A stretch of 64,000 bases of DNA, taken from NCBI GenBank assembly GCA_028687585.1, contig JAQTZV010000006.1:1-64000 (forward strand), given 5' to 3'. The notes beneath the pieces were generated by a model. It did no database searches. It was not told the DNA's origin and worked only from the letters and a program-made list of their open reading frames with translations. The stretch comes from Desulfuromonadaceae bacterium (GTDB lineage: Bacteria; Desulfobacterota; Desulfuromonadia; Geobacterales; Pseudopelobacteraceae). Position 1 is the first letter of the stretch. Each line of letters opens with the position of its first letter. The translations under genes were made by a program, and so were the position numbers. Below are positions 15,118 to 63,786 of the stretch, piece by piece.

Positions 15118-15157
15118 GGATCGTTCGCATTTTTAGATATCTTTTGGAGGAAACATC

Positions 15158-15571: not shown

Positions 15572-15598
15572 CAGTTTTTACGTTTCTGATTCATTCAA

Positions 15599-15626: not shown

Positions 15627-15644
15627 CGTTTTACTCCCGCCAAG

Positions 15645-16496: not shown

Positions 16497-16543
16497 GATA
16501 TATCTCCTGATGTGCGCTGTGGTTCATTTTTACGGTCGGCAAT

Positions 16544-16594
16544 AAAAAAGCCGGATCGCTACTATCGATTAGTTGATAGTTCGGCGACCCGGCT
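16544..16594 (-). terminator. Riboswitch expression-platform terminator
   Basis: On the minus strand an 11-bp stem (16584-16594 with 16549-16559, one G-T pair) encloses a nested ACTATC/GATAGT hairpin and is followed by six T residues. Its 5' arm is the aptamer P3 strand and the nested stem takes the 3' strand of P1. Ligand-bound aptamer and terminator are therefore mutually exclusive, giving a predicted ON switch. Confidence 0.8.
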
Positions 16595-16657
16595 GTCTCA
16601 TTGAGATCCTGGGCTTTCCGTCCCATCCTCGCGGATGGTTTAGTAGTATCGCTATCG
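16575..16657 (-). promoter_or_regulatory. GEMM-I cyclic-dinucleotide riboswitch aptamer, predicted cGAMP type (GEMM-Ib)
   Basis: On the minus strand, P1 (GATAG/CTATC) encloses a P2 hairpin with a GNRA loop (CCATCC-GCGA-GGATGG), then GGGACGGAAAGCC, and a P3 arm ending GACAGCCGGGTCGCCGA. These are the GEMM-I landmarks. Aligned to the Vibrio Vc2 aptamer, position 20 is A instead of G, and the 21-46 pair is C-G instead of G-C, a covariation that supports the alignment. A20 is the hallmark of the Geobacter GEMM-Ib riboswitches that bind 3',3'-cGAMP, sometimes also c-di-GMP. Confidence 0.85.
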
Positions 16658-16681
16658 TAAGAAGAATACTTACGTGACGGC

Positions 16682-16710
16682 ACAATACCCTGTGGTTAAA
16701 AAACTGTCAA
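16682..16710 (-). promoter_or_regulatory. Sigma-70-type promoter of the riboswitch transcript
   Basis: On the minus strand TTGACA (16705-16710) and TATTGT (16682-16687) are exactly 17 bases apart. Transcription would begin around 16675, placing a small CGTAAG/CTTACG hairpin (16656-16674) and the aptamer at the 5' end of the RNA. Confidence 0.8.
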
Positions 16711-16789
16711 GACAAGAAGGGCCTGTTATGCCATATCTAGCTATAATTGTTGCATTTTTTGTAACTCAAATGTCGCGATTGTGTGAAGT

Positions 16790-18307: not shown

Positions 18308-19238
18308 CTATAGACCTCTGATAGACCTCTTCCAGAATTGCCTTACCACCTTCGGCAAGTAACTGATCCGCAAGACGGATTCCCCATTGTTCGCTTTCTG
18401 TTACCGGTCCGCTGATTTCGCCGCGAACTGAGCGCTGGCCGTTTACGGCGGCGATAAACCCGACCAGACGCAACTGGCCGTTGCTGACGGTTCCGTGGGC
18501 CGCAATCGGCACCTGACAGCCCCCCTCGCACCGTTTAAGCAGGGCACGTTCTGCACGGACAGCATAGCTGGTGTCGGCATGATTAAAGAAGGCGATCGTT
18601 TCGGTTATAACCGGATCAGCCAGACGACATTCAATCCCCAAAGCGCCCTGGCCAATTGCTGGAATGGAGAGCTCCACATCCAGATATTCCCCGACACTGT
18701 CGGTGAAACCAAGGCGTTTCAGGCCGGCAGCAGCCAGAATGACCGCATCCAGGTTGTCTTCAGTAAGTTTTCTGATGCGGGTTTCTACATTACCGCGAAT
18801 GATGCACATCTGCAGGTCCGGACGTACTTTCAGCAGCTGGGCCTGACGGCGTAAGGCACTGGTGCCGATGCGGGCCCCTTGTGGCAGGTCGGCAAATTTC
18901 ACATTGCGTGATATCACTGCATCACGCGGGTCTTCGCGTTCGGTAATACAGTACAGGCCCAACCCTTCCGGGAAGTCGGTCGGCACGTCCTTCATGCTAT
19001 GTACGGCAATGTCGATTTCATCGCGTAGCATCGCCTCCTCGATCTCCTTGACGAACAGTCCCTTGCCACCGACCTGTGCCAGAGGGACATCAAGGATTTT
19101 GTCACCAATCGTCTTGATCTTGGTCAGTGTGACTTCCATGCCTGGATACCGTTTCTCAAGTTCGGACTTTACCCAGTTGGCCTGCCAGAGAGCCAGTTGG
19201 CTGGCTCGGGTACCTATTCTCAGTTTCTTTGGGGTCAT
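18300..19238 (-). CDS. hemC: Porphobilinogen deaminase (hydroxymethylbilane synthase)
   Basis: HemC polymerises four porphobilinogens into hydroxymethylbilane. The protein shows the N-terminal RIGTRASQLALWQ, the IAVHSMKDVP and GTSALRRQAQL substrate-site motifs, and the dipyrromethane-binding Cys in RCEGGCQVPIAAHG. ATG 19238 is chosen because GGAGA lies 6 bases upstream, giving 312 residues; an ATG 12 bases earlier is possible. It follows hemA by 47 bases and overlaps cobA-hemD by 8. Confidence 0.97.
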   Translation of the reverse strand: MTPKKLRIGTRASQLALWQANWVKSELEKRYPGMEVTLTKIKTIGDKILDVPLAQVGGKGLFVKEIEEAMLRDEIDIAVHSMKDVPTDFPEGLGLYCITEREDPRDAVISRNVKFADLPQGARIGTSALRRQAQLLKVRPDLQMCIIRGNVETRIRKLTEDNLDAVILAAAGLKRLGFTDSVGEYLDVELSIPAIGQGALGIECRLADPVITETIAFFNHADTSYAVRAERALLKRCEGGCQVPIAAHGTVSNGQLRLVGFIAAVNGQRSVRGEISGPVTESEQWGIRLADQLLAEGGKAILEEVYQRSIGE

Positions 19239-19285
19239 ACTGTTCTCCATTTCTTAATAATGAGTAGGCTGCTATTTCTGAATCC

Positions 19286-20587
19286 TTATTCTTCAAGTTC
19301 CAGCTCTTCATCCTCTCTTCGCAGCGCTTCCAGCCCAAACAGTTGTCGCAGTGCGTCGATATACAGATCCACCCTGCCGCCCTGCCCTGCCTGTTTAAGC
19401 ACAGACGTGGGAGCATGAAGCAGCTTGTTCATCATAGCCAGCGTAAGCGCTTCCAGACGTTTTTCTGCATCAGGTGGTAAATCCTTCCACCCGGAGATAG
19501 TTTTTTCAAGTTCGGCCCGACGAATTTCGTCAAAGCGGTTGCGCAGTGAAACAATGGTTGGTGTAACCTCAAGTGTAGACAGCCATTTATGAAACTGACC
19601 GATCTCCTGATTGATGATCTCCTCGGCTTTTTCAGCTTCCAGGCCGCGCTGGGCAAGATTGGCCTGGACGATCTCCTGGAGGTGGTCAACGGTGAAGAGG
19701 TACGCATTCTCGACGTCGTCAACTTTGGGGTCAATATCGCGTGGCACGGCGATATCAATGAAAAAAATCGGATTGAACCGGCGGCGCTTGACAACCTCTT
19801 CAGCATCCTTCGGTCCGATGATGCAGTGCGGGGCTCCGGTGGAAGAGAGCACGATATCGGCCCTATGGAGATGCTCTAAAAATGACTCGAAAGGAACCGC
19901 CTCACCGCCGAATTCCTCCGCCAGACGTTCTGCCCGCTCGAAGGTGCGGTTTGTTACCATCACCCCTTTAGCGCCGCTGTTAATAAAGTGCTTGGCAGCC
20001 AGTTCACACATTTCACCGGCACCGATCAGCATGACGGTCTTGTCCGATAGATCACCAAGAATCTTTTTTGCCAGCTCTACGGCGGCAAAGGCAACGGAAA
20101 CGGCAGAAGAGGCAATTTTAGTTTCAGTGCGCACCCGTTTGGCAACGGAAAATGCTTTGTGCAGAAAGCGATTGAGAATTATCCCGGAGGATTTATATTC
20201 GGCGGCATAACCGTAGGAGGTTTTAATCTGACCCAGTATCTGCGGTTCGCCGACAACCATTGAATCGAGACTGGAGGCGACACGGAACACGTGACGAATG
20301 GCATCTTCGGCGTGATAACTGTACAGGTGCGGCTCAAGCTCTTCAAATTGCAGATGATGATACTCGGCCATAAACCGCTTGATTCGTGCGATGCCGCCTG
20401 CAATATCCCGGGTAGTGGCATAAATCTCGACCCGGTTACAGGTAGAGACTATCACTCCTTCGATTATGCCATCAAGCGAGATCAATTCTGCGAGTGGGGT
20501 TTCAATCTGGTTGGGAGAGAACGCTACTTTTTCTCGAATCTTTACGGTAGCAGTTTTATGAGAGAGGCCGACAACGATGATATTCAT
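19286..20587 (-). CDS. hemA: Glutamyl-tRNA reductase
   Basis: HemA reduces glutamyl-tRNA to glutamate-1-semialdehyde, the first committed step of C5-pathway tetrapyrrole synthesis. The 433-residue protein has [14 protein letters not shown] at the start and the catalytic Cys50 in STCNR. It also has the NADPH-binding [16 protein letters not shown] segment and the C-terminal dimerisation region. It sits 56 bases after the CcsA-like gene and before hemC, giving the run precorrin-2 dehydrogenase, ccsA, hemA, hemC, cobA-hemD on the minus strand. Confidence 0.97.
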
Positions 20588-50114: not shown

Positions 50115-50510
50115 ATGGATTTTGGACAATTACAAATTGAGCTCTCTGCTGTTTTCTCCAAATATCAGCAAGAGATAGTTTCTGTATATCTTTTCGGTTC
50201 AACGGCGAAGGGGATGACCTCTCCGTCTAGCGATATTGATATTGCACTGTTGCTGCACAATACTGACAAAACAAGCGGAGCGGCCTTAAAATTCAGTTTG
50301 TATGCAGACCTGTGTCGCGCGTTAAAAAGAAACGATGTTGATATAGTGCTTCTGAATACCTCCGGCAATCTGATACTAAACGACGAAATCATCAGGCACG
50401 GTAAGGTCCTGTACTCTACCGATGACAAAGCAAGAGAAGCGTTTGAGCTGAGCGTACTTCATAGTTCTACCGACTTCAAACATCAGCGGCGCTACGCCAT
50501 GGGGGTTTAG
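50115..50510 (+). CDS. mntA: MntA-like nucleotidyltransferase antitoxin
   Basis: This 131-residue minimal nucleotidyltransferase has the GSx10DxD motif (GSTAKGMTSPSSDID) and a later strand supplying the third acidic residue (KRNDVDIVLL). MntA-type proteins AMPylate and neutralise HEPN RNase toxins. Its stop shares one base with the start of the downstream HEPN gene (TAGTG), so the pair is co-translated as a type VII toxin-antitoxin. Confidence 0.9.
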   Translation: MDFGQLQIELSAVFSKYQQEIVSVYLFGSTAKGMTSPSSDIDIALLLHNTDKTSGAALKFSLYADLCRALKRNDVDIVLLNTSGNLILNDEIIRHGKVLYSTDDKAREAFELSVLHSSTDFKHQRRYAMGV

Positions 50511-50941
50511 TGGAACGCATACATCAAAAAATAGGGCGGATCGGTGAGCACCTCTCAATAATTCGCTCGATAAAGGATGATTGCAGGATTAAATTTGCCG
50601 TCGATCCCGTGTATCGCGGGGCCCTACTCCATTACCTCTATCTGTTGTCGGACAGTTGCATTGTGTTGGCCGAGTTGGTAATCAAGCATAACGGGTTGAG
50701 GATACCTCAATCATATGCCGAGTCATTCGATATTTTGGGAGACAGTCATATTCTTGACGCAGAGTTTGCCTATCGCTTTGCAAAAATAGCCAGTTTTAGA
50801 AACTTTCTGGCGCATGATTACGTAAAGATTAATCCGGAAGTGATCTGTGGTCAGATTTTGAGCAGCTTGGATGATGTGGATCACTACCTGATACAGATTT
50901 CTGCATCTTTGGAGCAAGGAGATGGCACAAGCAGCCAATAA
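50510..50941 (+). CDS. hepT: HepT-like HEPN/DUF86 RNase toxin
   Basis: This is a 143-residue all-helical HEPN domain with the RNase motif RNFLAHDY (Rx4H followed by Tyr), which cleaves RNA and is the MntA AMPylation target. A GTG start overlaps the mntA stop by one base. Its 3' end overlaps the next nucleotidyltransferase by 20 bases. It appears intact. Confidence 0.9.
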   Translation: MERIHQKIGRIGEHLSIIRSIKDDCRIKFAVDPVYRGALLHYLYLLSDSCIVLAELVIKHNGLRIPQSYAESFDILGDSHILDAEFAYRFAKIASFRNFLAHDYVKINPEVICGQILSSLDDVDHYLIQISASLEQGDGTSSQ

Positions 50942-51248: not shown

Positions 51249-51469
51249 CACGCAAACGGAACAATCTTGAAGCAGCGGTATCAAATTTTCGTGATGCGTT
51301 GACACTCGAACCGGCATTATTCCCGGAGCTTGTTGCAGACAATATCAAGTCAGGACAGATTTCTCATTTTAAAGGCGCGTATGGCAATGACAAAAAAAGC
51401 TTTGATCTGTGGGATATCGGGCCAGGATGGTGCTTATCTCTCCCGCCTGCTGCTGGCAAAAAACTATGA
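51233..51469 (+). pseudogene. Truncated HI0074-like nucleotidyltransferase partner (KNTase C-type)
   Basis: The first about 45 codons (METKLTRKRNNLEAAVSNFRDAL..) fit the start of the helical substrate-binding partner of MNT nucleotidyltransferases. Similarity ends near SGQISHF, where the family has RFEFTYEL. The remaining 30 codons overlap the gmd-like gene in another frame and are junk. The gene was probably cut when the sugar cluster was joined to the toxin-antitoxin module. Confidence 0.6.
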
Positions 51470-52337
51470 AGTTCATGGTACGGCACGTGATGCTCAGGTC
51501 ACATCGTTTCCCAACCTAATAACGCTCGGAACTAGAGAGCAGATCACCTGCCACTCAATGGCGCTCAACGATTTTCGCAGTGTGCTCCAGATCATGGCAA
51601 AAGTTCAGCCTGATGAGATCTATAATCTTGCCGGGCAAAGTTCTGTTGGCCTCTCTTTTGAGCAGCCGGTTGAAACTCTGGAGAGTGTCAGTGTCGGCAC
51701 TTTAAACCTGCTGGAGGCTATTCGGTTCCTGGCTCGTCCGGTCAAATTGTACAGTGCCGGATCCAGTGAATGTTTCGGCAACACCGGTGGGTTAGCTGCA
51801 GACGAGGAAACCCCTTTTCGCCCTCGCAGCCCATATGCTGTAGCCAAGGCAACCGCATTCTGGGAGGTGGCCAACTACCGTGAAGCATATAGCCTGTTTG
51901 CCTGCACCGGCATCTTGTTCAATCACGAATCCCCACTTAGACCGGAACGCTTTGTTACCCAGAAAATCATCTGTGCTGCCCGCCGTATTGCAGAAGGAAG
52001 CACGGAGAAACTGCATCTGGGAAACAACGCTATTGCCCGGGACTGGGGCTGGGCACCAGAATATGTTGAGGCTATGTGGTTGATGCTGCAACAACCGGAA
52101 CCTGATGATTACGTCATTGCAACCGGTGAAACCAACACGCTCGAAGATTTTGTCCGGGAAGTTTTTTCGTTATTTGGGCTGGACTGGCATGAACATGTCA
52201 TCAGTGACCCGTCACTGTTGCGGCCGTCCGAAATCATGACCAGCCGGGGAAATCCCGCGAAAGCTCTAGATGTTTTGGGGTGGAAAGCTCGGTATTCCAT
52301 GCGGGAAGTGGTCAGGATGATGGAGGCCGGTTTGTGA
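51387..52337 (+). CDS. gmd: GDP-mannose 4,6-dehydratase-like NAD(P)-dependent sugar dehydratase
   Basis: This 316-residue extended SDR protein has GISGQDGAYLSRLLL (NADP motif), LYSAGSSECFG with the catalytic Ser/Glu region, the Tyr-x3-Lys pair in SPYAVAKA, and FNHESPLRPERFVTQKI, which are hallmarks of GDP-mannose 4,6-dehydratase. The product, GDP-4-keto-6-deoxymannose, is the precursor of perosamine, rhamnose, fucose and others. It is shorter than most Gmd proteins (about 345-370), so a close relative is possible. ATG 51387 follows AAAGG at good spacing; the upstream frame overlaps the truncated partner gene. It opens the glycan cluster. Confidence 0.87.
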   Translation: MTKKALICGISGQDGAYLSRLLLAKNYEVHGTARDAQVTSFPNLITLGTREQITCHSMALNDFRSVLQIMAKVQPDEIYNLAGQSSVGLSFEQPVETLESVSVGTLNLLEAIRFLARPVKLYSAGSSECFGNTGGLAADEETPFRPRSPYAVAKATAFWEVANYREAYSLFACTGILFNHESPLRPERFVTQKIICAARRIAEGSTEKLHLGNNAIARDWGWAPEYVEAMWLMLQQPEPDDYVIATGETNTLEDFVREVFSLFGLDWHEHVISDPSLLRPSEIMTSRGNPAKALDVLGWKARYSMREVVRMMEAGL

Positions 52338-52402: not shown

Positions 52403-53323
52403 GTGATACCATTTATGCAAGAGGTTAATGTGCAAAAGCTACTTCCCCCAATCAAACCAAAACCGGAACACAACTACGTGGCCTTCTTCCTAAGCTTTAA
52501 CTGTAATCTCAAATGCGACTACTGTATTAACCTGCACGACAATGCTTCCCGGTTTGAGCAGGCCAAGCGAAGCTATATGTCTGCTGATGACTGGATTGCC
52601 GCTGCCAACCGCCTGGTGTTGCGCGATGACCTGCCGCTTACGCTGCAGGGGGGGGAGCCGACACTGTATCCCGGTTTCTATAGGTTTGTGAATGAGGTCA
52701 AGCCGGAAATCAAGATGGATTTGATGACTAACCTGATGTTTGACGTTGATGCTTTCATCAATAACGTACCGGTGGAGCGTTTTCTCCGAGAGGCTCCATA
52801 TGCTGCAATCCGAGTCAGTTACCATCCCGGGCAGAACGATATTGATGATCTTATAAAAAAGGCGATAAAACTACAGGATGCCGGCTTTCGAGTAGGTTTG
52901 TATGGAATAGATCACCCTGATCCGGTTATCAACGGTCATATCAAAGAGGTGCAGCAACGGTGTCTAAATCTTGGTCTCGATTTTAGAAGCAAGGAATTTC
53001 TAGGAAAACATGGCGATGTTATATACGGCACATTTAAGTATGAAGACTGTGTGACCGGTGAGTTGTTAAAAAAGTGCGAATGCAGGACAACGGAAATCAT
53101 TGTTGATCCTTCGGGGAATGTGTTTAAATGCCATTCGGACCTGTACCGTGCCAGGAACCCCATCGCCCGCATACTCGATGCCGATTTCAGTGAAGAAACT
53201 ATCGGCGAGTTTCGAGCTTGTGAAAATTACGGCGATTGCAACCCTTGCGATGTCAAAGTCAAGACCAACCGCTTCCAGATATTTGGGCATACTAGCGTTG
53301 AAATCAGGAATATTAAAGAATGA
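52403..53323 (+). CDS. Radical SAM protein 1 of the glycan cluster
   Basis: This 306-residue radical SAM enzyme has the cluster motif CNLKCDYC (Cys34, Cys38, Cys41), the GGEPTLYP loop, and a Cys-rich C-terminal part (KKCECRTTEIIVDPSGNVFKC, then CENYGDCNPC) that suggests a SPASM-like auxiliary cluster. The substrate is unknown; the neighbours point to sugar or glycan modification. The stop overlaps the next start by 4 bases. The start could also be ATG 52415. Confidence 0.87.
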   Translation: MIPFMQEVNVQKLLPPIKPKPEHNYVAFFLSFNCNLKCDYCINLHDNASRFEQAKRSYMSADDWIAAANRLVLRDDLPLTLQGGEPTLYPGFYRFVNEVKPEIKMDLMTNLMFDVDAFINNVPVERFLREAPYAAIRVSYHPGQNDIDDLIKKAIKLQDAGFRVGLYGIDHPDPVINGHIKEVQQRCLNLGLDFRSKEFLGKHGDVIYGTFKYEDCVTGELLKKCECRTTEIIVDPSGNVFKCHSDLYRARNPIARILDADFSEETIGEFRACENYGDCNPCDVKVKTNRFQIFGHTSVEIRNIKE

Positions 53324-54384
53324 TCAAGTACAATTTTGACGGGCATAAACTGATGTACCATCCGGATAGAGTGGCCCAATATCTTGCCGATGGCGACTGC
53401 TACCCGCTCTACATGGAAATAAGTCCGGTGGGAGTATGCAATCACCGCTGCATTTTCTGTGCTTATGACTTCATCGGTTACCCCAACCGAAAGTTGGAAA
53501 GGGAGAGGACGCTGCTCCTATTAGATGAATTGGCGGAGTGTGGGTTAAAAAGCATTTTATTTGCTGGTGAAGGGGAGCCACTTATCCATCCTGATATCGC
53601 CGAGTTCATATTACGGGCACGGGACAATGGCATTGATGTCGGGTTGTTTACCAATGGGCAGCTTTTAAAGAAAGAACTGGCAGAAGTCATTCTTCCTGCA
53701 CTTACATTCATACGCTTCAGTTTTAATGGTGGCAACCGTGATAACTATGCGGCTATTCATTCAGTCCACCCCGATGCTTTTGACACGGTTGTTGAAAATA
53801 TCAGAGAAGCCGTGTTAATCAAGCGTCAAGCGAGCCTGCAGGCTGATATTGGCGCGCAGTTCGTTCTGATACCAGAAAACAGCGAATATATTTTGGCCGC
53901 AGCGGAAACCATTAAAGATTGCGGTGCGGACTATCTGGCAATAAAGCCGTTTATTCAGCGTGAATTACAGTCTTATCAGCTTCAACTGCAATTTTCCAAC
54001 GAGCTGCTTGAGGAGCTTCTAAGCTCGGTAGAAAATATTGCAGGTTCCTCTTTCAATGTCATTGCGCGCAGAGATACTTTCCAGAATTACGGAGTGCGCA
54101 ATTATGATCATTGTTACGGCGCTTCGTTTATTACTGTGCTCAATTCAGCTGGAGTAATTAGTACCTGTTTACCATACTGGGAGCAGCCTGAATTTAGCTT
54201 TGGCAGCATTTACGAACACACTTTTAAGGGTATCTGGAACTCGGATCGTAGGAAGAGTGTAAAAGCACATCTGGAGTGCACGCTTGACACTCACGGCTGT
54301 CCACCGAACTGCCGTCCAAATGCGGTGAATGAATTTCTTTCGAGCCTGAAGTATCCACAGGTCAAGCATATAAATTTTATCTGA
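53320..54384 (+). CDS. Radical SAM/SPASM protein 2 of the glycan cluster
   Basis: This 354-residue protein has the cluster motif CNHRCIFC (Cys40, Cys44, Cys47), the AGEGEPLIHP loop, and a C-terminal SPASM-like region (NSAGVISTCLPYWEQPEFSFGSIYEHTFKGIWNS, then HGCPPNCRP). Its first 50 residues follow the pattern HxxRVAxYxxDGDCxPL, shared with the protein at 59923-60987, with the same Cys positions, so the two are paralogues. It overlaps the previous radical SAM gene by 4 bases. The substrate is not known. Confidence 0.88.
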   Translation: MIKYNFDGHKLMYHPDRVAQYLADGDCYPLYMEISPVGVCNHRCIFCAYDFIGYPNRKLERERTLLLLDELAECGLKSILFAGEGEPLIHPDIAEFILRARDNGIDVGLFTNGQLLKKELAEVILPALTFIRFSFNGGNRDNYAAIHSVHPDAFDTVVENIREAVLIKRQASLQADIGAQFVLIPENSEYILAAAETIKDCGADYLAIKPFIQRELQSYQLQLQFSNELLEELLSSVENIAGSSFNVIARRDTFQNYGVRNYDHCYGASFITVLNSAGVISTCLPYWEQPEFSFGSIYEHTFKGIWNSDRRKSVKAHLECTLDTHGCPPNCRPNAVNEFLSSLKYPQVKHINFI

Positions 54385-54413: not shown

Positions 54414-55895
54414 ATGGCAAAAATTCTTTTTATAGAGTCAGACCTGCGCAATGAGAAACTAGGTATCATGTACCTCTCCGCAGCTTTGAAAAAAGCCGGC
54501 CATGATACCCAGATGTGCTGGGTAGAGCGTGAGGATATTCACGATCTGATGCCGTCGTATGCCCCGGATTTCATAGCTTTCAGCCTTACGACCGGTGCCC
54601 ACAAGTCCTTGCTGGCTCTGGCCGCAGAGTTGAAACAAAAGTATCCGGTCAAGGTCGTTGTTGGCGGGCCGCACGCAACTTTTTTTGCTGAAGAAATTCC
54701 TGAGGAAGCTGCTGACTATGTGGTTATCGGTCAGGGCGAAAAGGCACTAGTTGATATTGTCGGGCAAAGTGTACAACAGCGTGTCATCAGTTACGATCTT
54801 AATGATCTTAACGAAATGGCTTTCCCCGACCGGGAGCTGTTTTACCGGTTTACAGAGTTCCGCGACAATCCAATGAAAAATGTCATCACCTGCCGGGATT
54901 GCCCTTATTCATGCAGCTATTGCTATAACCACACCTGGAAAGAAAAGTTTCGTGGACAACCACATTTTTTGCAAAGACGCTGCGTTGATAATGTCCTGGC
55001 TGAATTGTCCGAGATCAAAAAACGCTATCTGGTTGAACAGTTCCTGTTTATCGACGACAATTTTCTCTTCAACCGCGACTGGGTAAAAGAGTTTTGCTTG
55101 CGCTATCCCGTTGAAATCGGCTTGCCATTTCTATGCAGCTTCAGCCTGAATCTGTTTGACGAGGAAGTTCTCACCGATTTGAAGAATGCCGGACTTTTCA
55201 TGGTTAATTTTGCCTTGGAATCGGCCGATCCTGTAGTACAGCGTGAAATACTTAACAGGGGTCATGTCAAAAACGAACATATCGAAAAGGGTATCAAGCT
55301 CTTGCAATCATATGGCATCAAAACCAGGATGCAGAATATGATCGGACTTCCTGTCCGGAACTCCCTTGAAGATGCGCTCAATACACTGGCATTTAATCAA
55401 AAAAACAAGGTCGATGACAGTTGGGCCTCAATCTTTCAGCCTTATCCAAACACCAAGCTTGCCGCGTACTGTGCCGAGAAAGGATTTAGTGATCCAGGCA
55501 ATACAACTTGCGCCGATAGTTTCTTTGACAAATCATGCCTCGACATTGATCATCCTGATGAAATCAAGCGACTGCAAAAGTGGTGGTATTTTATAATAAA
55601 AAACGACATTCCGGAAGCAGTGGTCAAAAACATTTTACTGCTTGATTTTGATGAGCAGGTTGGAAATGAACTTCAAAATCTGCGCTATTCGTTTTCTCGA
55701 AACTACCTTTACGGTCTAAATGATTTAAATCAGCAATTAGAGCACAACTGGGAACGAATCAGGACAGATTTTTCCAGGCACAAAAATTTTAACGTGTTTA
55801 AAAAACTTATCAGACAATATGCGTTATGTTATGGACTTGTAGAAATTTTTATGAAGATAAAGATTCCTCCGTCGTTCACGTTAAAAGGAATGTGA
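54414..55895 (+). CDS. B12-binding-domain radical SAM protein 1
   Basis: This 493-residue protein has an N-terminal B12-binding-like Rossmann domain (about 1-125, KVVVGGPHATFFAEEIPEEAADYVVIGQGE) followed by a radical SAM core with CPYSCSYC (Cys163, Cys167, Cys170). The typical cobalamin-binding DxHxxG is not visible, so it may not bind B12. Its helical C-terminus is about 150 residues. Members of this class methylate or rearrange natural-product and lipid substrates. It follows radical SAM protein 2, as its counterpart does at 60984. Confidence 0.87.
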   Translation: MAKILFIESDLRNEKLGIMYLSAALKKAGHDTQMCWVEREDIHDLMPSYAPDFIAFSLTTGAHKSLLALAAELKQKYPVKVVVGGPHATFFAEEIPEEAADYVVIGQGEKALVDIVGQSVQQRVISYDLNDLNEMAFPDRELFYRFTEFRDNPMKNVITCRDCPYSCSYCYNHTWKEKFRGQPHFLQRRCVDNVLAELSEIKKRYLVEQFLFIDDNFLFNRDWVKEFCLRYPVEIGLPFLCSFSLNLFDEEVLTDLKNAGLFMVNFALESADPVVQREILNRGHVKNEHIEKGIKLLQSYGIKTRMQNMIGLPVRNSLEDALNTLAFNQKNKVDDSWASIFQPYPNTKLAAYCAEKGFSDPGNTTCADSFFDKSCLDIDHPDEIKRLQKWWYFIIKNDIPEAVVKNILLLDFDEQVGNELQNLRYSFSRNYLYGLNDLNQQLEHNWERIRTDFSRHKNFNVFKKLIRQYALCYGLVEIFMKIKIPPSFTLKGM

Positions 55896-55898: not shown

Positions 55899-56846
55899 AT
55901 GCGGACAAAGATATTGATAATAAAGCTCGGTTACTCTGAAACTCTAGACCCGGAGATCGGAAAGGTGCCCAGCCTTGGTGATGTTCTACGTACAACGCCG
56001 ATTCTATGGGGTGTGAAGGAAAAGTTCGAAGATTCTTGCATTACATGGCTTGTTTCGGAGCAAGCAGAACCTCTGCTGAGGGGCAATAAACTCATTGATA
56101 GAATCCTTATCTGGGATCAATTCGTTCCTTTCCAGCTCATGAGGGAAAAGTTTGACGTACTCATTAATCTTGAAAAGGTATCAGGTGTTGCAGCCCTATC
56201 AGACATGATTGATGCCTGGACAAAATATGGCTTCCGATTTGATTGCAATGAAGGAATTTACCATAGTTACGAGCGTGGCATTGATTTTATTAATTATATC
56301 AACAATAAACGTGAAGGAAAGAACAAGGGCGAGCTTTGGCAACAAAAGTTGATTGAGATGCTAGGCGTTGAATGGAAGGGGCAGGAATACATATTAGAGC
56401 ACCACAATAAGACTGAAGAAATATATGATGTAGGTCTTAACTACATGGTTGGTAGCAAATGGCCAACCAAAATGATGCCTAAAGAAAAGTGGGATCAACT
56501 CGCCATACAATTGGAGTCGATGGGTTACAAAATTTCGTTCCAACAAGGCCTGCAAGATTTACATGAATATATAGGTTGGATTAACTCCTGCAAGACCATC
56601 ATATCACAAGATAGCTTGGGCGTTCATCTCGCACTTGCCCTTAAAAAAAATCTGATCGGCCTATATGGACCAACCGACCCGACAGAGATTTATCTTTACA
56701 GACGTGGAAAGCACATCATTGCTGACGTTACATGCCCATATATGCCATGCTATAGTTCCGGTTGTTTAAGCGGATTACTTTGCATGAATACAATTGAAAT
56801 TGAACTGATATGCGCATCTGTCGAACAAATGCTTGATGGGGGATGA
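55899..56846 (+). CDS. Glycosyltransferase family 9 (heptosyltransferase-like)
   Basis: This 315-residue protein has the GT9 layout: an N-terminal ILIIKLGYSETL with GDVLRTTPIL, and a C-terminal nucleotide-sugar domain with ISQDSLGVHLALALKKNLIGLYGPTDPTE. GT9 enzymes transfer ADP-heptose or related sugars onto LPS or other glycans. Several Cys near the end (CPYMPCYSSGCLSGLLC) resemble a metal site and are unusual. It is 3 bases after the previous gene and overlaps the E1-alpha gene by 11 bases. Confidence 0.82.
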   Translation: MRTKILIIKLGYSETLDPEIGKVPSLGDVLRTTPILWGVKEKFEDSCITWLVSEQAEPLLRGNKLIDRILIWDQFVPFQLMREKFDVLINLEKVSGVAALSDMIDAWTKYGFRFDCNEGIYHSYERGIDFINYINNKREGKNKGELWQQKLIEMLGVEWKGQEYILEHHNKTEEIYDVGLNYMVGSKWPTKMMPKEKWDQLAIQLESMGYKISFQQGLQDLHEYIGWINSCKTIISQDSLGVHLALALKKNLIGLYGPTDPTEIYLYRRGKHIIADVTCPYMPCYSSGCLSGLLCMNTIEIELICASVEQMLDGG

Positions 56847-57729
56847 ATTGGAGCTATTGGCAAACTTATATAGAAAAATGTTCAAAATAAGATGTTTTGA
56901 AGAGTCGCTGCTAGAACTTTTTTCACAGGGCAAGCTTATGGGGACGACTCACACTTGCATAGGGCAGGAAGCTTGCTCGGTCGGAGTGATTCAGGCGCTC
57001 GACATGACACGTGATATAATCTTCTCGAATCACCGTGGGCATGGTCATTTTTTGGCTTATTGTGAAGACATGGAAGGTTTGCTTAATGAGATAGGCGGAA
57101 AAAATGCCGGCGTCTGTGGTGGTATCGGAGGGAGCCAGCATTTACATAAAAATAATTTTTATTCCAACGGAATACTCGGTGGAACTGTTGCTGTTGCTAC
57201 TGGAATTGCTTTAGCCGAAAAAATAAAAAAAAGTAACGCAATTAGCGTAGTTTTTTTTGGTGATGGCGCCATGGGAGAAGGTATTATATACGAAGCGATG
57301 AATATCGCTGCGTTATGGAATCTGCCAATTCTCTTTGTATTGGAACACAACCAATATGCACAAACAACCCCAAGCACGATGCAGCATAGCGGAAATATTG
57401 CTGAACGTGCAGCGTCTTTCTCTATTAAGTCGAATGAGTTGGAAGTCGCTGATGTTATAGAAGTATACAGAGTGGCCATAAATGCAATAGATTATGTAAG
57501 AAGTTACGGTGTTCCCTTCTTCTTGACCCTCCACACCTATAGGCTTGCACCACACAGCAAAGGAGATGACTTCCGACAAGAAGAAGAGTTAGAAAAATAT
57601 CGAATAAAAGACCCGCTTGGGCTGGCACGAAAAAAACTACTATCATCGAACATTGACACGACAGGTATTGAAAATCACGTTAGAAGCGAACTTCATGAAG
57701 TAATACAAAGGACATTACACAGCACTTGA
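56836..57729 (+). CDS. 2-oxoacid dehydrogenase E1 component, alpha subunit-like
   Basis: This 297-residue TPP enzyme subunit resembles pyruvate or branched-chain dehydrogenase E1-alpha: ACSVGVIQALDMTRDIIFSNHRGHGHFLAY, the GDG..N TPP motif in FFGDGAMGEGIIYEAMN..EHNQYA, and GDDFRQEEELEKY near the end. E1-alpha/beta decarboxylates a 2-oxo acid and loads the acyl group on a lipoyl domain. ATG 56836 is used; a TTG one codon earlier is also in frame. It is 3 bases before the E1-beta gene and co-encoded with a lipoyl-sugar acyltransferase fusion. Confidence 0.9.
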   Translation: MGDELELLANLYRKMFKIRCFEESLLELFSQGKLMGTTHTCIGQEACSVGVIQALDMTRDIIFSNHRGHGHFLAYCEDMEGLLNEIGGKNAGVCGGIGGSQHLHKNNFYSNGILGGTVAVATGIALAEKIKKSNAISVVFFGDGAMGEGIIYEAMNIAALWNLPILFVLEHNQYAQTTPSTMQHSGNIAERAASFSIKSNELEVADVIEVYRVAINAIDYVRSYGVPFFLTLHTYRLAPHSKGDDFRQEEELEKYRIKDPLGLARKKLLSSNIDTTGIENHVRSELHEVIQRTLHST

Positions 57730-57732
57730 TCT

Positions 57733-58743
57733 ATGAGAAATAGCGATCTTTATTTACATGAACTTAATGCCGCACTTTTGGATGCAATGGAAAGTGACAG
57801 CCGTGTCTATCTGATGGGGGAAGATATTCTTGATCCGTACGGGGGGGCGTTTAAGGTAACCGCTGGATTGTCTTCACGGTTTCCTGAAAGAGTTATTGGA
57901 ACACCTATCAGCGAAGCATGCATCACAGGCATTGGCGTCGGGATGGCGCTCAGAGGTCTAATACCCATTATAGAAATAATGTTTGGTGATTTTTTAACAT
58001 TAGCAGCTGACCAAATAATAAATCATGCCGCTAAATTTAGGAAAATGTATAACAGCCAGGTATCCGTGCCAATGGTTATCAGAACCCCTATGGGAGGAGG
58101 CAGAGGCTATGGGCCAACCCATAGCCAAAGTTTAGAGAAAATGTTTCTCGGGATTCCTGGTTTGAACGTGGTTTCACCATCAATATTTCACAATGTACGA
58201 GAATTGCTGCGGTACGCTATCTTTGAAGACAAAGATCCAACCCTGTTTATTGAACACAAGCTTCTCTACTCGACCCCACTGCAAAGCAGTAATAGCTATT
58301 TTAGCGTTGAGTCTATTCCTACATCCTCAGGATTTCCAGTTGCAGTAGTAAATAATTTTGATCACGGAACTCCTGATGTCACAATAGTTTCATACGGGGG
58401 CTCAAGCAGACTTCTTATTGACATTATGAAATCGATGCGAGATGAAGAAATAAAAATCTCAGCATGTTATCCATCTCTTATATCAAACGGTATTGCCCCA
58501 TGCATCACTAAATATGCTTCATTGTCACAACGAGTTATAATCATCGAAGAAGGTGCGGGTCCTTTTGGCTGGGGTGCAGAAATTGCAAGCCAAATATACG
58601 ATCAGGTTGGGAGCCGTCTTGTCCAGTCAATTAGGAGAATTCAAACAGCAAATGCCGTTATTCCATCATCTAAAGAACTTGAGTACACGATATTACCCAA
58701 CAGGGAAAGCATTGAGCGCGCAATAGAGGAAGTTCTTACATGA
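57733..58743 (+). CDS. 2-oxoacid dehydrogenase E1 component, beta subunit-like
   Basis: This 336-residue protein has the E1-beta pattern: a start (LYLHELNAALLDAMESD..VYLMGEDI), TPISEACITGIGVGMALRG, and RTPMGGGRGYGPTHSQSLE, which is the conserved E1-beta active-site region. The C-terminal transketolase domain has IIIEEGAGPFGWGAEIA. It pairs with the E1-alpha gene, and its last 4 bases overlap the start of the lipoyl fusion, so all three are made together. No E3 dihydrolipoamide dehydrogenase is in the window. Confidence 0.9.
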   Translation: MRNSDLYLHELNAALLDAMESDSRVYLMGEDILDPYGGAFKVTAGLSSRFPERVIGTPISEACITGIGVGMALRGLIPIIEIMFGDFLTLAADQIINHAAKFRKMYNSQVSVPMVIRTPMGGGRGYGPTHSQSLEKMFLGIPGLNVVSPSIFHNVRELLRYAIFEDKDPTLFIEHKLLYSTPLQSSNSYFSVESIPTSSGFPVAVVNNFDHGTPDVTIVSYGGSSRLLIDIMKSMRDEEIKISACYPSLISNGIAPCITKYASLSQRVIIIEEGAGPFGWGAEIASQIYDQVGSRLVQSIRRIQTANAVIPSSKELEYTILPNRESIERAIEEVLT

Positions 58744-59864
58744 CTTATTTAAAGCAAACGATTCCAATGGTGTCTGTAAACGATGACATCGTAACAATTA
58801 CAGTTTGGCATAAAAATAACGGTGAATTTGTCAAGGCACATTCTACTATATGTGAAATTGAAACTACAAAATCTGTTGTAGATATCGAAGCTGAATGTGA
58901 TGGGTATCTCTTTCACCTGATAGAAGAAGGCGCACAACTAGCTGTAAATACAGCTTTCGCAATCATTTCTGAAAGCAATGACCCGTCAGTAATCAGCCGT
59001 GCTACAGTTCCGTCGGGACAGCTATTGTCTGAATTAAATGAAAATAAACGCGCATGGACGAAGAAAGCAGAAATTATCGCAAAACAGAATGGCATTGAAA
59101 TTTCGAATGTATTGGCAGATGGGATAATTCAAGAGGCTGATGTGCGGGCATACCTAGCGAGCGTAATATTGGACCCCAAAGGGGTGGACGACCTGGTTGA
59201 CGACGTTTATTCAAATACTTCTAGACAACGCATTCTGATTATTGGTGGTGGATATGGTGCAGCTCATATTATTGATGCAATTAATCGCACCACACATCAG
59301 GAAGCAGTAGGGATACTCGATGACTCTGAGCCGCTTCACGGTAAATCAATCGCTGGGATTAAAATTATCGGCAGTGTTTCAAAAATTTATACTTTGCTAC
59401 AAAACGAGCAGGCTGACGCAGCCATATTGAGCTTTGGAAATATAAAAAAACGGGATTTACTCTTTAATGAACTGATTTCTCAAAATGTTCCATTTGCAAA
59501 TATCATTGATAAAGATGCACGTATTCACTCAAATGTCTCTATGGGAGTCGGAAATATCGTGTTGGCTAATGCAAGAATCGCCGTATGCACATCAATTGGT
59601 GACAACAATTTTTTGAGTGCTTTTGTCAATATTGATCACCATAATAAGATTGGCAGTAACTGCACTTTTGGCCCAGGAGTCATGACATCTGGTCGCGTTT
59701 CTATTGGAAATAATGTATTATTTGGCACTGGTATTTTCATTGAACCAGGTGTTGCTGTCGGCTCTAACTCGGTCATTTCATCGGGATCGGTAATCACAGT
59801 CGATATCCCCGAAAAATCGATCGTAAAAAAAATGGTTGATATTAAAATTCAACCTCTCCCTTGA
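58740..59864 (+). CDS. Fusion of lipoyl domain, E1/E3-binding domain and PglD/NeuD-type sugar acyltransferase
   Basis: Three parts can be seen in 374 residues. Residues 1-80 are a lipoyl domain; Lys44 in EIETTKSVVDIEA is the lipoylation site. Residues about 105-140 (AEIIAKQNGIEISNVLADG, DVRAYL) look like the peripheral subunit-binding domain of E2 proteins. From about 163 to the end is a PglD/NeuD-type acyltransferase: an N-terminal Rossmann part (RILIIGGGYGAAHIIDAI) and a left-handed beta-helix with FVNIDHHNKIGSNCTFGPG, including the catalytic His pair region. The usual E2 catalytic domain is replaced by a sugar acyltransferase. It overlaps the E1-beta gene by 4 bases. Confidence 0.87.
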   Translation: MTYLKQTIPMVSVNDDIVTITVWHKNNGEFVKAHSTICEIETTKSVVDIEAECDGYLFHLIEEGAQLAVNTAFAIISESNDPSVISRATVPSGQLLSELNENKRAWTKKAEIIAKQNGIEISNVLADGIIQEADVRAYLASVILDPKGVDDLVDDVYSNTSRQRILIIGGGYGAAHIIDAINRTTHQEAVGILDDSEPLHGKSIAGIKIIGSVSKIYTLLQNEQADAAILSFGNIKKRDLLFNELISQNVPFANIIDKDARIHSNVSMGVGNIVLANARIAVCTSIGDNNFLSAFVNIDHHNKIGSNCTFGPGVMTSGRVSIGNNVLFGTGIFIEPGVAVGSNSVISSGSVITVDIPEKSIVKKMVDIKIQPLP

Positions 59865-59922: not shown

Positions 59923-60987
59923 ATGAACTTTAACAGACTTGGTTTTGATAAAATATTTTTTCATACTAATCGCGTCGCTGAGTATTTTACTGATGGTGAT
60001 TGTTTCCCATTGCAAGGAATATTTGGCATTACAAACAGCTGTGATCATAGGTGCGTTTGGTGCTATCCCATTTATATTGGTAAGACAAGAGATACTATTT
60101 ACATGGCTGACACCGGTAAATTTAAAGCATTCTTGTTGGAATGTAAAAAACTTGGTATGAAATCATACATGCTTGTTGGTTCAGGAGAGCCTACACTCCA
60201 TCCGGATTTTGTCGAAATACTCGACTATTCTAAGAAAATCGGATTAGACATTGGGTTGTACACAAATGGCTTTCAGCTTAAAGATAACGACAAAATGTCA
60301 TCTGTCTTACGGAATTGTACATACGTGCGGATTTCTCTTGATGCGGGAACCATTGAGACCCACGAAAAACTTCATGGCATAAAAGGGCATTTCCCCGTAA
60401 TTTTAGAAAATATTCGAAATCTTGTTAAACAGAGGACATCTGTTTTTCCAACGATCGGAGTGCAAATAGCTACAAATAAAGATAATTGTCATGAATTACC
60501 ACTTCTTGCACATATTTGTAAGCAGGTTGAAGTTGACTATCTTTCTATCAAACCAGTTTACTCTGATATAATTACAAAACATCAACAGGAAGATCTTTTC
60601 GATGAAATAAAAATAAAAGAATTTATGAAGGCAGCCGAAGCGTACTCATCTGAAAAATTCTGTGTTTATGCAAAATATGAGCAATTTGAAGCGGCAATGC
60701 AGTCCCGTTACAATAACGGTACGGAATATGAGCATTGCCAAGGTACACCGTTTATTCTTTTTGCTGATGGTGATGGCAGTGTATATATATGTCCCAACAG
60801 AACTCTGAAATTCGGAAACTATTTAGATGACAACCTAGAAGAAATCTGGAATGGACCGGAGCGAAGACAAATTATCTCTTCAATAAATCTTAATCAATGC
60901 CCTGCCGGTTGTCATCTTCACCCATTAAACAAGATTCTTTGGAATATCAAAAATCCTGATCCAGCACTCCACCCAAATTTTCTTTGA
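59923..60987 (+). CDS. Radical SAM/SPASM protein 3 of the glycan cluster, paralogue of protein 2
   Basis: This 354-residue protein is the same length as the one at 53320 and has its cluster motif CDHRCVWC at the same residues (40, 44, 47), after the shared pattern HxxRVAxYxxDGDCxPL. It has VGSGEPTLHP and a C-terminal Cys set (FADGDGSVYICPNRTLKFGNY, then NQCPAGCHLHP). The rest is diverged, suggesting an old duplication with a changed substrate. GGAGAG precedes the ATG. It overlaps the next gene by 4 bases. Confidence 0.88.
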   Translation: MNFNRLGFDKIFFHTNRVAEYFTDGDCFPLQGIFGITNSCDHRCVWCYPIYIGKTRDTIYMADTGKFKAFLLECKKLGMKSYMLVGSGEPTLHPDFVEILDYSKKIGLDIGLYTNGFQLKDNDKMSSVLRNCTYVRISLDAGTIETHEKLHGIKGHFPVILENIRNLVKQRTSVFPTIGVQIATNKDNCHELPLLAHICKQVEVDYLSIKPVYSDIITKHQQEDLFDEIKIKEFMKAAEAYSSEKFCVYAKYEQFEAAMQSRYNNGTEYEHCQGTPFILFADGDGSVYICPNRTLKFGNYLDDNLEEIWNGPERRQIISSINLNQCPAGCHLHPLNKILWNIKNPDPALHPNFL

Positions 60988-62618
60988 ATTCGGCCTTAAA
61001 TCTTCACCCTTCGCAAAATGGAGTACATCCCTTGATACATTCGTTGTCAAATAAGTCACACAATAAGAACATCCTACTCATTACACCAACAAGCCCCCAT
61101 GAGGCTGGGTTGACGAAATGGCTTTCTATTAACCTAGGGATTGAACGTCTTTCTGGATATCTAAACAAATACGGTCATTGCTCCAGAACCTACGATACAA
61201 ACTTATTCAAAGCTAAGGCATTAGTATCGCAGCCTTCACTTCAGGAGATATTGTTATCCAGGCGCTGGGATATTATTGGCTTTTCTGTTATGGAGGAAAC
61301 TCTTGTTGAAGACATTAGTAATATGATGATGGCAAACAGGCTCTGCCCTGATGCACTTGTTATAGTTGGCGGGCATGCAGCGCAGTTTGATTATCAGACA
61401 ATTCTTGATAAGTCACCTGCCAGGATTGTCGTGCTAGGTGAAGGTGAAATTCCGCTACTTCAGATCGCAAATGGCACACCTCTTGGGGATATACCTGGCA
61501 TCATAGTTAAAAATAAGGCTGTTCCTTTGTCGCAAGAACAATTTGTGGAAGCTACACTCGCAATTGACTATGAACAGATTCCGTATGAAATTTATTGGGA
61601 TTATTATGTGCAACTGTATCAATCCAATAATATTAAAATAACAGATGACATTAGTAAAATGATCCATACCATCAGGATATTCACTCGAAACTACTGCCCA
61701 ATGCGGTGCAAGTTCTGTTCATCAACAAATTTTCTGAATTTTGCCTCAGGCAGAAAGATGGTTCCAATCGTCGATATAACCGGGAAAGCTCTTATAGACC
61801 TTTTGAAAAGAGTAATTGCTGCCCATCCACGCGTGGAAACATTTTATTTCACTGATGATGACTTTTGCTGCAAAAAAACTGCGCTTAAAGAATTCTGCAA
61901 TCTCGTGATTAAGGAAAACATCACGGTCACTTTTATTGCCTTCGCCCGTATCGATGACCTTGACAATGAGACTATCAAATTAATGAAAAAGGCTGGTTTT
62001 CGTACTTTAAACATGGGGCTTGAAAATACTCATGCTGAAATTCTTAAAGAGTTCAATAAATCGTATACTCCTGATGTAATCGATTCAAATCTTGAATTAC
62101 TCCATACACACGGCATTAAGCCAGCCACAACATTTATTTTATGCAGTCCGGAAGCCAAGCTTGAATGGATTGAATCAAATGTTCGAAAAATTATTGATCT
62201 AATGGAAAAAAATTATATTTCTCCGGGGATTAATGTCTGCGTCCAACCACAAAAAGGTTCTCGCTTTCATGAGGAGTATTCAGAATTTGAAGCCCAAATG
62301 TTAGCAATAACAGGAACAAATCATCTCCTGAAGCGCAATCATTTCATCAAATGTACAGATTTAGAGGCACGAGAATTCCAGTACCGTTTTTTACACCATT
62401 GGGCGCAACATATTGACAAAGAGGCCCAAATCGGTGGCAGTCATCTCAATTCCCAAACACAGTCCGCAATGAAATTGAAGCTAATTCTTGATATCATTGC
62501 CGAAATAAAGAGTGAGCGCGGTGATCCCGACAGATTTAAATATTCAAGTATGACAGCAGAAGAAAAAGATGTTCTTTGGAATACTTTGCAAAAATACTCT
62601 TACGGTGCAAGTCTTTAA
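60984..62618 (+). CDS. B12-binding-domain radical SAM protein 2
   Basis: This 544-residue protein has an N-terminal B12-binding-like domain (about 30-165, LLITPTSPHEAGLTKW, VIVGGHAAQFDYQTI, VVLGEGEIPLL) and a radical SAM core with CPMRCKFC (Cys238, Cys242, Cys245). A long C-terminal helical region follows. The N-terminal layout (GLTKW..NLGIERLSGYL) is typical of the cobalamin-dependent class B methylases and related enzymes. It overlaps protein 3 by 4 bases and is arranged like the 53320-54414 pair. Confidence 0.87.
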   Translation: MNSALNLHPSQNGVHPLIHSLSNKSHNKNILLITPTSPHEAGLTKWLSINLGIERLSGYLNKYGHCSRTYDTNLFKAKALVSQPSLQEILLSRRWDIIGFSVMEETLVEDISNMMMANRLCPDALVIVGGHAAQFDYQTILDKSPARIVVLGEGEIPLLQIANGTPLGDIPGIIVKNKAVPLSQEQFVEATLAIDYEQIPYEIYWDYYVQLYQSNNIKITDDISKMIHTIRIFTRNYCPMRCKFCSSTNFLNFASGRKMVPIVDITGKALIDLLKRVIAAHPRVETFYFTDDDFCCKKTALKEFCNLVIKENITVTFIAFARIDDLDNETIKLMKKAGFRTLNMGLENTHAEILKEFNKSYTPDVIDSNLELLHTHGIKPATTFILCSPEAKLEWIESNVRKIIDLMEKNYISPGINVCVQPQKGSRFHEEYSEFEAQMLAITGTNHLLKRNHFIKCTDLEAREFQYRFLHHWAQHIDKEAQIGGSHLNSQTQSAMKLKLILDIIAEIKSERGDPDRFKYSSMTAEEKDVLWNTLQKYSYGASL

Positions 62619-62673: not shown

Positions 62674-63786
62674 ATGTTAAAAGTTCCATTCGTTAATCTT
62701 TCTTTACAACACAAAGCACTAAAACGCCCCTTACTCAAATCAATAGCAGAGATGCTTGATAGCGGTCAGTTTATTTTAGGGCCGGTTGTGGAAGAATTTG
62801 AGAAAACCTTCGCCGCGTTTTGTGATACTCAATTTGCCGTTGGTGTTGACAATGGCACAAATGCACTACTTCTAACCCTTAAGGCACTTGGTATCGGACC
62901 GGGCGATGAAGTTATTACGGCCGCCAACTCTTTTCTTGCTTCCGCCTCTTGTATTGCATTAGCTGGAGCTACACCAGTATTCGCGGATGTTCGTGATGAC
63001 TATGCCATTGATCCATATTTCGTGGAGTCAGTGATTACAAGCCGTACCAAAGCTATAATTCCTGTCCATCTAACCGGGCATCCTGCTGAAATGGATACTA
63101 TTATTCAACTGGCTGACAAACATTGTATTTATGTGGTTGAGGATGCAGCCCAAGCAGTGGGAGCAAAGTTTGCTGGACAGGCGGTCGGAAGCTTTGGAGT
63201 CGCAGGTTGTTTTAGCTTCCATCCCCTCAAGATTCTTAATGCTGTTGGTGACGGCGGGATGATTACTACAAGCGATTTCGCTTTATATGAAATGCTTTTG
63301 AAAGCGCGGAACCACGGCCTTAAAAGCAGGGATGAATGTGAATTCTGGAGCTTTAACGCCCGACTGGACGCAATTCAAGCAATAATACTCAGAGAAAAGA
63401 TGGAATATTTGAATCAATGGATTTCAAAGCGTAGAGATATTGCGAAGATATATAGTTCTGAACTTGCAGAATTTGTCAAAGTGCCGAGAGAAAGCGAAAG
63501 AGAAACAAGTGTGTATCAGACATACGTAATCCAGGCAGAGCGACGAAACCAGTTACAGCAGTACTTGGCAGTCCGAGGTATTGATACAAAAATCCATTAC
63601 TCTATACCGATTCACTTGCAGGAGGCTGCATCTTCACTCGGTTACAAAATAGGAGATTTTCGTGTAGCGGAATATCAATCCAACCATATATTAAGCTTGC
63701 CTATATATCCTGAATTGTCCACTGAACAGCTAGACTACGTGGTAAAAACAATAAAAAAATTTTACATGGGAACCGGAGCCCATTAA
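62674..63786 (+). CDS. DegT/DnrJ/EryC1/StrS-family sugar aminotransferase
   Basis: This 370-residue PLP enzyme has the family pattern: PFVNLSLQHKAL, GVDNGTNALLLTLKALGIGPGDEVI, VVEDAAQAVGAKFAGQ with the PLP-binding Asp, and the Schiff-base Lys in FSFHPLKILNAVGDGG. It transfers an amino group from glutamate to a keto sugar nucleotide, here possibly the 4-keto product of the gmd-like enzyme. Which carbon is aminated cannot be read from sequence. The start follows GGGGGGAC 11 bases upstream. Confidence 0.93.
   Translation: MLKVPFVNLSLQHKALKRPLLKSIAEMLDSGQFILGPVVEEFEKTFAAFCDTQFAVGVDNGTNALLLTLKALGIGPGDEVITAANSFLASASCIALAGATPVFADVRDDYAIDPYFVESVITSRTKAIIPVHLTGHPAEMDTIIQLADKHCIYVVEDAAQAVGAKFAGQAVGSFGVAGCFSFHPLKILNAVGDGGMITTSDFALYEMLLKARNHGLKSRDECEFWSFNARLDAIQAIILREKMEYLNQWISKRRDIAKIYSSELAEFVKVPRESERETSVYQTYVIQAERRNQLQQYLAVRGIDTKIHYSIPIHLQEAASSLGYKIGDFRVAEYQSNHILSLPIYPELSTEQLDYVVKTIKKFYMGTGAH

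Follow-up and report, generated by a model that had tools for sequence, protein, structure and literature searches.

Can a sugar acyltransferase take its acyl group straight from the lipoyl arm of a 2-oxoacid dehydrogenase-like complex, with no need for acyl-coenzyme A (acyl-CoA)? Three genes of a Desulfuromonadaceae bacterium raise this question (assembly GCA_028687585.1, contig JAQTZV010000006.1). We analysed positions 1-64,000 of that contig, and this whole stretch of 64,000 nt is called the window below. An earlier note on the window had placed genes for the dehydrogenase subunits E1-alpha and E1-beta and for a fusion protein at 56836..59864. The fusion was described as lipoyl and E1/E3-binding domains joined to a sugar acyltransferase, and the three genes were proposed to acylate sugars independently of CoA. 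The open reading frames and their Pfam domains lie at exactly these positions, which confirmed that the observation is real (Table 1). A gap of 3 bases separates E1-alpha from E1-beta, and E1-beta overlaps the fusion gene by 4 bases. An in-frame TTG lies one codon 5' of the E1-alpha start, and a glycosyltransferase family 9 gene runs into that start. We consider it probable that these genes encode a 2-oxoacid dehydrogenase-like complex in which a PglD/PerB-type sugar N-acyltransferase has taken the place of the E2 core, and that the lipoyl arm, with no part played by CoA, acylates an amino sugar destined for a flagellar or surface glycan.

The same design was found in nine other genomes, giving ten full-length fusions with pairwise identities of 17-66%. 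Because it recurs in ten genomes, we rejected a chance fusion or an assembly artefact. A tree of the acyltransferase half (65 rows, 61 distinct) placed the 10 fused rows on one side of a branch and the 55 unfused rows on the other (support 83/81). The fusions fell into two subtypes: subtype II, containing the window, L070/L079, L071/L080 and L106 (100/99), and subtype I, containing L043, L069 and L039-L042 (98/94). Thirteen positions were invariant in all ten (window numbering: N14, E41, K44, G55, A110, G169, R238, H300, G305, P312, G329, G331 and G349).

The N-terminal lipoyl domain claimed by the earlier note was recovered. Pfam Biotin_lipoyl matched residues 8-75 of the window fusion at 31.2 bits (cut-off 22.1), with Lys44 at the hairpin turn; it matched all ten fusions, and was over the cut-off in nine. 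Glu41 and Lys44 were both unchanged across the alignment, and a Glu three residues ahead of the lipoyl Lys is important for lipoyl ligases. From these residues we infer that Lys44 is lipoylated. The site reads ETTKS in the window and E-x-x-K in the relatives, without the Met-Lys-Met motif of biotin domains, and on this ground we rejected a biotin carrier. We also observed that Asn14 (codon 58779-58781), close to the N-terminal end of the lipoyl domain, is one of the invariant residues; perhaps it is a signature for the dedicated E1.

A sugar acyltransferase does stand where an E2 core would be expected, as the earlier note had read it. Both PglD_N and Hexapep (46.5 bits, cut-off 27) matched the window fusion, no E2 catalytic domain was present among the Pfam matches of the window, and the E2 catalytic motif HxxxDG was absent from all ten fusions. 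PglD_N was matched in every fusion except L069, although below its cut-off in L040, L042 and L071. The Asp194-Asp195 pair was likewise kept, by eye, in nine of the ten (not in L069). This pair matches Asp40/Asp41 of Pcryo_0637, which contact the UDP-sugar according to the excerpts of PMC8040287. Among solved structures, the GDP-perosamine N-acetyltransferase PerB was the closest to the acyltransferase half, and the window fusion scored 142.7 bits against TIGR03570, below the curated cut-off of 160.8. On one chain, the fusion keeps what an E1 requires (lipoyl and subunit-binding domains) and what sugar chemistry requires (the Asp pair and the His), without the E2 core for making acyl-CoA.

The E1/E3-binding domain was supported in part. 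Pfam E3_binding gave no match in the window protein even at E<=10, and none in L043 or the other three subtype-II fusions; in the remaining five it matched below the cut-off (L039, best at 5.3e-4; L041, L040, L042 and L069). Residues 5-151 of the L039 fusion matched the human E3-binding protein 1zy8_K at 6.9e-12, covering the lipoyl and subunit-binding domains, and the window segment aligned with the subunit-binding region of its relatives. A home-made E3-binding profile of two sequences matched only its own seeds, and so we relied on the Pfam scans and on a fold search. A model of window residues 101-151 (mean predicted local distance difference test score, pLDDT, 80) formed a helix, a short turn and a helix. 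Its 17 best PDB matches were all subunit-binding domains or E2 models (E 0.03-1.5), and the best, 2eq9_C, superposed at 0.9 A across 38 columns with 32% identity. None of the 41 matches reached E<=0.001. Despite these weak E-values, chance would hardly produce such consistency, and we counted the domain as present in a degenerate form.

The survey of gene neighbourhoods proposed by the earlier note tied the fusion to E1. All ten fusions adjoin E1 genes, whereas no E1-alpha or E1-beta match (E<=1e-3) was found in 19 control loci that matched only the acyltransferase half (L044-L062, 5-21 kb each); the association is thus more than chance. The order is fusion, E1-alpha, E1-beta in L039, L040, L041/L037 and L042/L038, and E1-alpha, E1-beta, fusion in L043. 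In L069 a partial E1-beta, 43% identical to that of the window, lies 5' of the fusion, with nothing more on the 3,042-base contig. A single E1-alpha/E1-beta polypeptide adjoins the fusion in L079, L080 and L106. As an observation in its own right, this joining of the two subunits (L079 9927-11870, L080 7020-8951, L106 10840-12828) occurs in three of the four subtype-II loci. A DegT aminotransferase gene lies at most ~3 kb away in nine of the ten loci, the tenth being the short L069 contig. Ordinary NeuD genes commonly have a DegT neighbour too, so that the DegT gene is a mark of the pathway and not of the novelty.

The E1 subunits retain their catalytic residues. In the window E1-alpha the thiamin diphosphate motif GDG..N and the loop PHSKGDD are intact, as are the catalytic Glu (PISE) and His (GPTHSQ) stretches of E1-beta. 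The GDG or GEG stretch and the HS loop were found in all nine E1-alpha rows. PISE was found in nine of ten E1-beta rows (L069 has AISE at the edge of its partial frame), and the His stretch in ten of ten (by eye for L079). E1-alpha was most like pyruvate dehydrogenase (PDH)-type subunits (TIGR03182, 252.6 bits; cut-off 393.85), a likeness that leaves its substrate undecided. A tree of the E1-alphas grouped the window with L043, L079, L080 and L106 (100/100), and four loci from metagenome-assembled genomes (MAGs) formed a clade of their own (100/99). Ten other E1-alphas of the same genomes, including two of the window's genome, nested in neither fusion-linked clade. An E3-type match was present elsewhere in all ten fusion genomes (E<=1e-50), over the curated cut-off in seven; the other three may be other flavoproteins.

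The design is sporadic across distant lineages, mostly in fewer than 1 in 100 sampled genomes. As grouped in our genome set, these lineages are Pseudomonadota, SAR324 and the window's own phylum. Fusions were found in 1 of 394 other genomes of the window's phylum (G174), in 4 of 63 genomes of G174's class (G174, G468, G463, G482), in 1 of 52 genomes of the SAR324 phylum (the single-cell genome G495), in 3 of 398 genomes of Pseudomonadota, the phylum of L045 (G612, G720, G936), and in 2 of 369 genomes of G936's class (G936, G1497). A scan of genome_contigs returned 24 loci, of which the five full-length ones were the same four MAG loci and SAR324. Among the matches listed for 57 near relatives (36 of the genus, 21 of the order), none spanned both halves. 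In the window's class, 6 of 276 other genomes matched at E<=1e-48, in the acyltransferase half only; a divergent fusion could escape this threshold, because the scores of fusions left out of the profile ran from 1e-50 to 1e-62. A search with the window protein alone found no relative in genome_contigs or viral_contigs and no match in plasmids or phages at E<=1e-5. The L106 fusion matched 19 plasmid records, none covering 80% of it, and the 10 of these 19 that were listed matched in the acyltransferase half only. The lipoyl part alone missed L079, L080 and L106 in tblastn searches, and it was not used for calling loci fused.

We sought evidence on CoA in the last turn of the beta-helix. In Pcryo_0637, a homologue of solved structure, the Asn212-Pro213 peptide is cis with CoA bound and, per earlier studies, trans without it (excerpts of PMC8040287). 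Counting from the match ends placed this proline as the P of a C-terminal GxPA, and we scored the motif as GxP[ASGT] past residue 150 of each row. Most unfused rows carried it (47 of 55, or 44 of 51 distinct). In 46 of these 47 it lay at most 25 residues from the end; the other, L007, lies in a longer frame. The eight unfused rows without it comprised five from Anaerolineaceae (four distinct sequences), two short frames and one GSPC. Among the fusions, the motif was present in 6/6 of subtype I and 0/4 of subtype II, the window included. Its loss in the window subtype fits CoA independence. That is not proof, because six fusions keep the motif and the five unfused Anaerolineaceae rows lack it; subtype-I fusions may still bind CoA. 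Two side observations belong here. The Anaerolineaceae NeuD-like proteins (L049, L051, L052, L054, L065) carry YAGxxWP in place of GxPA, in frames without a lipoyl domain. L007 (G041), an unfused NeuD-like domain, is part of a 582-aa frame that begins at the acyltransferase start and continues far beyond its GVPA, possibly as another kind of fusion.

E1 enzymes load acyl groups onto a lipoyl lysine, and in PglD-type enzymes the sugar amine attacks a thioester whose carrier lies between subunits. In the mechanism that we propose, E1 would decarboxylate a 2-oxo acid, which could be pyruvate but is more likely a special one, and acylate the lipoyl arm on Lys44. The arm would swing to the active site of the beta-helix, presumably a trimer. 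There His300 would activate the amine of a nucleotide-linked 4-amino sugar for attack on the acyl-dihydrolipoyl thioester, so that CoA would be unneeded. The subunit-binding domain would hold a housekeeping dihydrolipoamide dehydrogenase (E3), and this enzyme would reoxidise the arm. For the window the acceptor would probably be GDP-perosamine-like, made by the Gmd-like dehydratase and DegT, and the product would pass to a flagellar glycan; this acceptor is the simplest guess because the nearest solved relative is PerB. That the substrate is an unusual 2-oxo acid is speculation, prompted by the abundance of acetyl-CoA. CoA independence itself draws circumstantial support from the motif loss in the window subtype, the missing E2 core and the separate E1 lineage. 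We also lean slightly towards the view that sugar acylation has a third kind of thioester donor, in addition to acyl-CoA and acyl-acyl carrier protein (ACP). This donor would be an acyl-dihydrolipoyl arm bound to protein, which a dedicated E1 loads and which the beta-helix core, in place of the E2 core, discharges onto an amino sugar.

Several results weigh against this reading. The motif linked to CoA is kept by six of the ten fusions, and the five unfused Anaerolineaceae rows (four distinct sequences) lack it and have no lipoyl arm. Pfam E3_binding misses the window protein, L043 and the other three subtype-II fusions, and the lipoyl match of L106 stays below its cut-off (15.4 vs 22.1 bits). 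There is no E3 gene within the fusion clusters. The E1-alphas of four loci stand apart, and the join of both fusion-linked clades received only 63/41. The grouping of the fused halves is not strongly backed at 83/81, with long branches in 11 rows (the window, L043 and L069 included), and the program warned that the join of L043 and L069 may be false. The flagellar link was found in three of ten loci only, through distance or neighbourhood. Lastly, given how plentiful acetyl-CoA is, a need for acetyl would be a strange motive for evolving such a system. We take the earlier interpretation to be partly supported: the loss of the motif in subtype II, the absent E2 core and the E1 lineage speak for its CoA-independent chemistry, and the motif counts in the other fusions and in the unfused rows do not.

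Could the beta-helix use CoA after all? The acyl group might pass from the lipoyl arm to CoA, as in an E2 of different fold, and then to the sugar at the same or another active site. GxPA in the six subtype-I fusions would suit this route, and the closest solved relatives (PerB, PglB, PglD, VioB) are named N-acetyltransferases, several solved with CoA. We think it unlikely, since the window subtype has the motif in none of its four members, the sugar-binding Asp pair and the His are retained, and enzymes of the beta-helix fold draw acyl groups from CoA or ACP and do not load CoA. The nearest solved relatives being N-acetyltransferases would equally suit a lipoyl domain that serves as a tether or sensor only, with the acyltransferase using the acyl-CoA pool and E1 acting elsewhere; NeuD-family enzymes function without any lipoyl domain. 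The strict linkage of fusion and E1 genes, the E1 clade of its own and the invariant Lys44 and Glu41 all speak against so loose a role, which we hold to be very improbable and more doubtful than the route through CoA.

The E1 pair might instead attach two carbons to a keto sugar through a new C-C bond, the fusion merely acylating or anchoring. PDH-like pairs (AviB1/AviB2, Pau11/Pau12) are proposed for two-carbon sugar branches in the excerpts of PMC4425429 and PMC4753412. In Shewanella oneidensis, normal motility driven by flagella requires the gene of a thiamin diphosphate enzyme that lies next to a NeuB-domain gene, according to the excerpts of PMC3765264. A lipoyl partner is needless for such chemistry, yet the Lys is invariant in all ten fusions, and a protein with lipoyl and subunit-binding domains is what an E1 canonically acts on. 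We rate this possibility as improbable, between the CoA route and the tether. The least probable of the four is direct transfer to another acceptor, which might be a hydroxyl group, a nonulosonic acid or an intermediate at a later stage of the glycan. The fusion of L043 adjoins NeuB and a PseG-like gene, and PseB, PseC and PseF lie near the fusion of L079; on the other side stand the DegT genes of nine loci and the closest solved match, a GDP-perosamine N-acetyltransferase. We retain the direct acylation of an amino sugar by the lipoyl arm as the probable function.

Table 1. Features of the E1-fusion locus and associated sugar genes (window positions).
Feature	Position	Strand	Evidence
GDP-mannose 4,6-dehydratase-like (Gmd-like) gene, candidate first step of the acceptor sugar, putatively associated	51330..52337	+	GDP_Man_Dehyd 2e-106; TIGR01472 335.6 bits, below cut-off 415
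E1-alpha	56836-57729	+	Pfam E1_dh 3e-57
E1-beta	57733-58743	+	Pfam Transket_pyr 8e-33, Transketolase_C 3e-8; alignment to 1ik6
Fusion gene, 374 aa: lipoyl, subunit-binding, PglD_N, left-handed beta-helix acyltransferase	58740-59864	+	
Lipoyl domain, residues 2-79	58743..58976	+	
Lys44 codon, expected lipoylation site	58869..58871	+	ETTKS, hairpin turn of predicted lipoyl fold; invariant 10/10 fusions
Peripheral subunit-binding (E1/E3-binding) domain, ~residues 107-144, degenerate sequence	59058..59171	+	51-residue model vs 2eq9_C
PglD_N nucleotide-sugar binding domain, residues 164-245, with Asp194-Asp195	59229..59474	+	PF17836 28.9 bits, cut-off 23.4
Left-handed beta-helix acyltransferase domain, ~residues 253-356, without C-terminal GxPA	59496..59807	+	
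His300 codon, expected catalytic base	59637..59639	+	Aligned with PerB His141; invariant 10/10
DegT aminotransferase, candidate source of the acceptor amino sugar	62674..63786	+	Pfam 4e-109

The surroundings of the genes bear on the destination of the product. G+C falls from 0.515 (window 1-51000) to 0.411 across the three genes, and this drop in composition suggests that they sit in an acquired island. The Gmd-like dehydratase gene lies on one flank of the system and the DegT gene on the other. Further along the window's contig (C7), two flagellin genes and flbT lie at ~89.5-92.6 kb (L107 9630-12741), ~30 kb downstream of the fusion, suggesting a flagellin glycosylation island. Among the other loci, L080 has a flagellin gene upstream (Pfam Flagellin_N, Flagellin_C), and L079 has PseB, PseC and PseF over their cut-offs together with a FleQ-like regulator; the PseG-like gene of L043 scored below its cut-off.

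Other genes of the neighbourhood are recorded as side observations. Five radical SAM genes flank the E1-fusion genes (52403-53323, 53320-54384, 54414-55895, 59923-60987 and 60984-62618), two with SPASM and two with B12-binding domains. At the island edge, the small adjacent genes 50115-50510 and 50510-50941 look by eye like an MNT nucleotidyltransferase/HEPN-like pair. Downstream of the DegT gene, L035 holds long frames of 1388 and at least 1959 aa (3790-7956 and 14023-19899) with glycosyltransferase, radical SAM and methyltransferase-like parts, also judged by eye.

If our reading is true, the principle of E1, swinging lipoyl arm, acyltransferase core and E3 is not tied to the production of acyl-CoA, and a swap of the core has redirected oxidative decarboxylation into glycan decoration. 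Acyl groups from 2-oxo acids, perhaps ones without a cellular CoA form, would be put onto flagellar or surface glycans. Carbohydrate biochemistry would gain a new acyl donor and a modular means of turning 2-oxo acids into N-acyl sugars, and new acyl amino sugars on flagellins and polysaccharides would be suggested. The significance hinges on direct transfer, which we infer.

Among the matches listed in the openly licensed PMC literature, no description of the fusion or the system was found. The abstract of PMC4875605 reports flagellin glycans that carry 'lipoyl' groups, and its section 9 deals with fatty-acid synthesis genes and names no lipoyl domain. We did not count it as prior art, since 'lipoyl' there seems to mean those genes. 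The precedent found for E1 pairs in sugar biosynthesis is AviB1/AviB2 and Pau11/Pau12, PDH-like E1 alpha-beta pairs that also lie in sugar biosynthesis clusters; unlike here, a lipoyl partner is not mentioned in the excerpts of PMC4425429 and PMC4753412, where a C-C bond on a keto sugar is proposed.

The locus resembles the 2-oxoacid dehydrogenase complexes, such as those of pyruvate and branched-chain 2-oxo acids (PDH/BCKDH), in its E1 alpha-beta pair with an intact thiamin diphosphate site, its partner with lipoyl and subunit-binding domains and an E3-type gene elsewhere in the genome. It differs from them in having a beta-helix sugar acyltransferase for the E2 catalytic domain, with no HxxxDG, and its predicted product is an acyl sugar and not acyl-CoA. 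With NeuD, PglD, PerB and VioB (TIGR03570; 4ea7, 3bss, 7txp, 7l7y) it shares PglD_N and the beta-helix, the catalytic His, the Asp pair and a DegT gene nearby. In contrast to these enzymes, the fusion has N-terminal lipoyl and subunit-binding domains and is linked to E1, the window subtype is without the CoA-linked proline motif, and the window fusion scores below the TIGR03570 cut-off. Because the E2 core and that motif are absent and the TIGR03570 cut-off is not reached, we filed the system under neither parent family. Its parts are known already; the design and the predicted donor are new.

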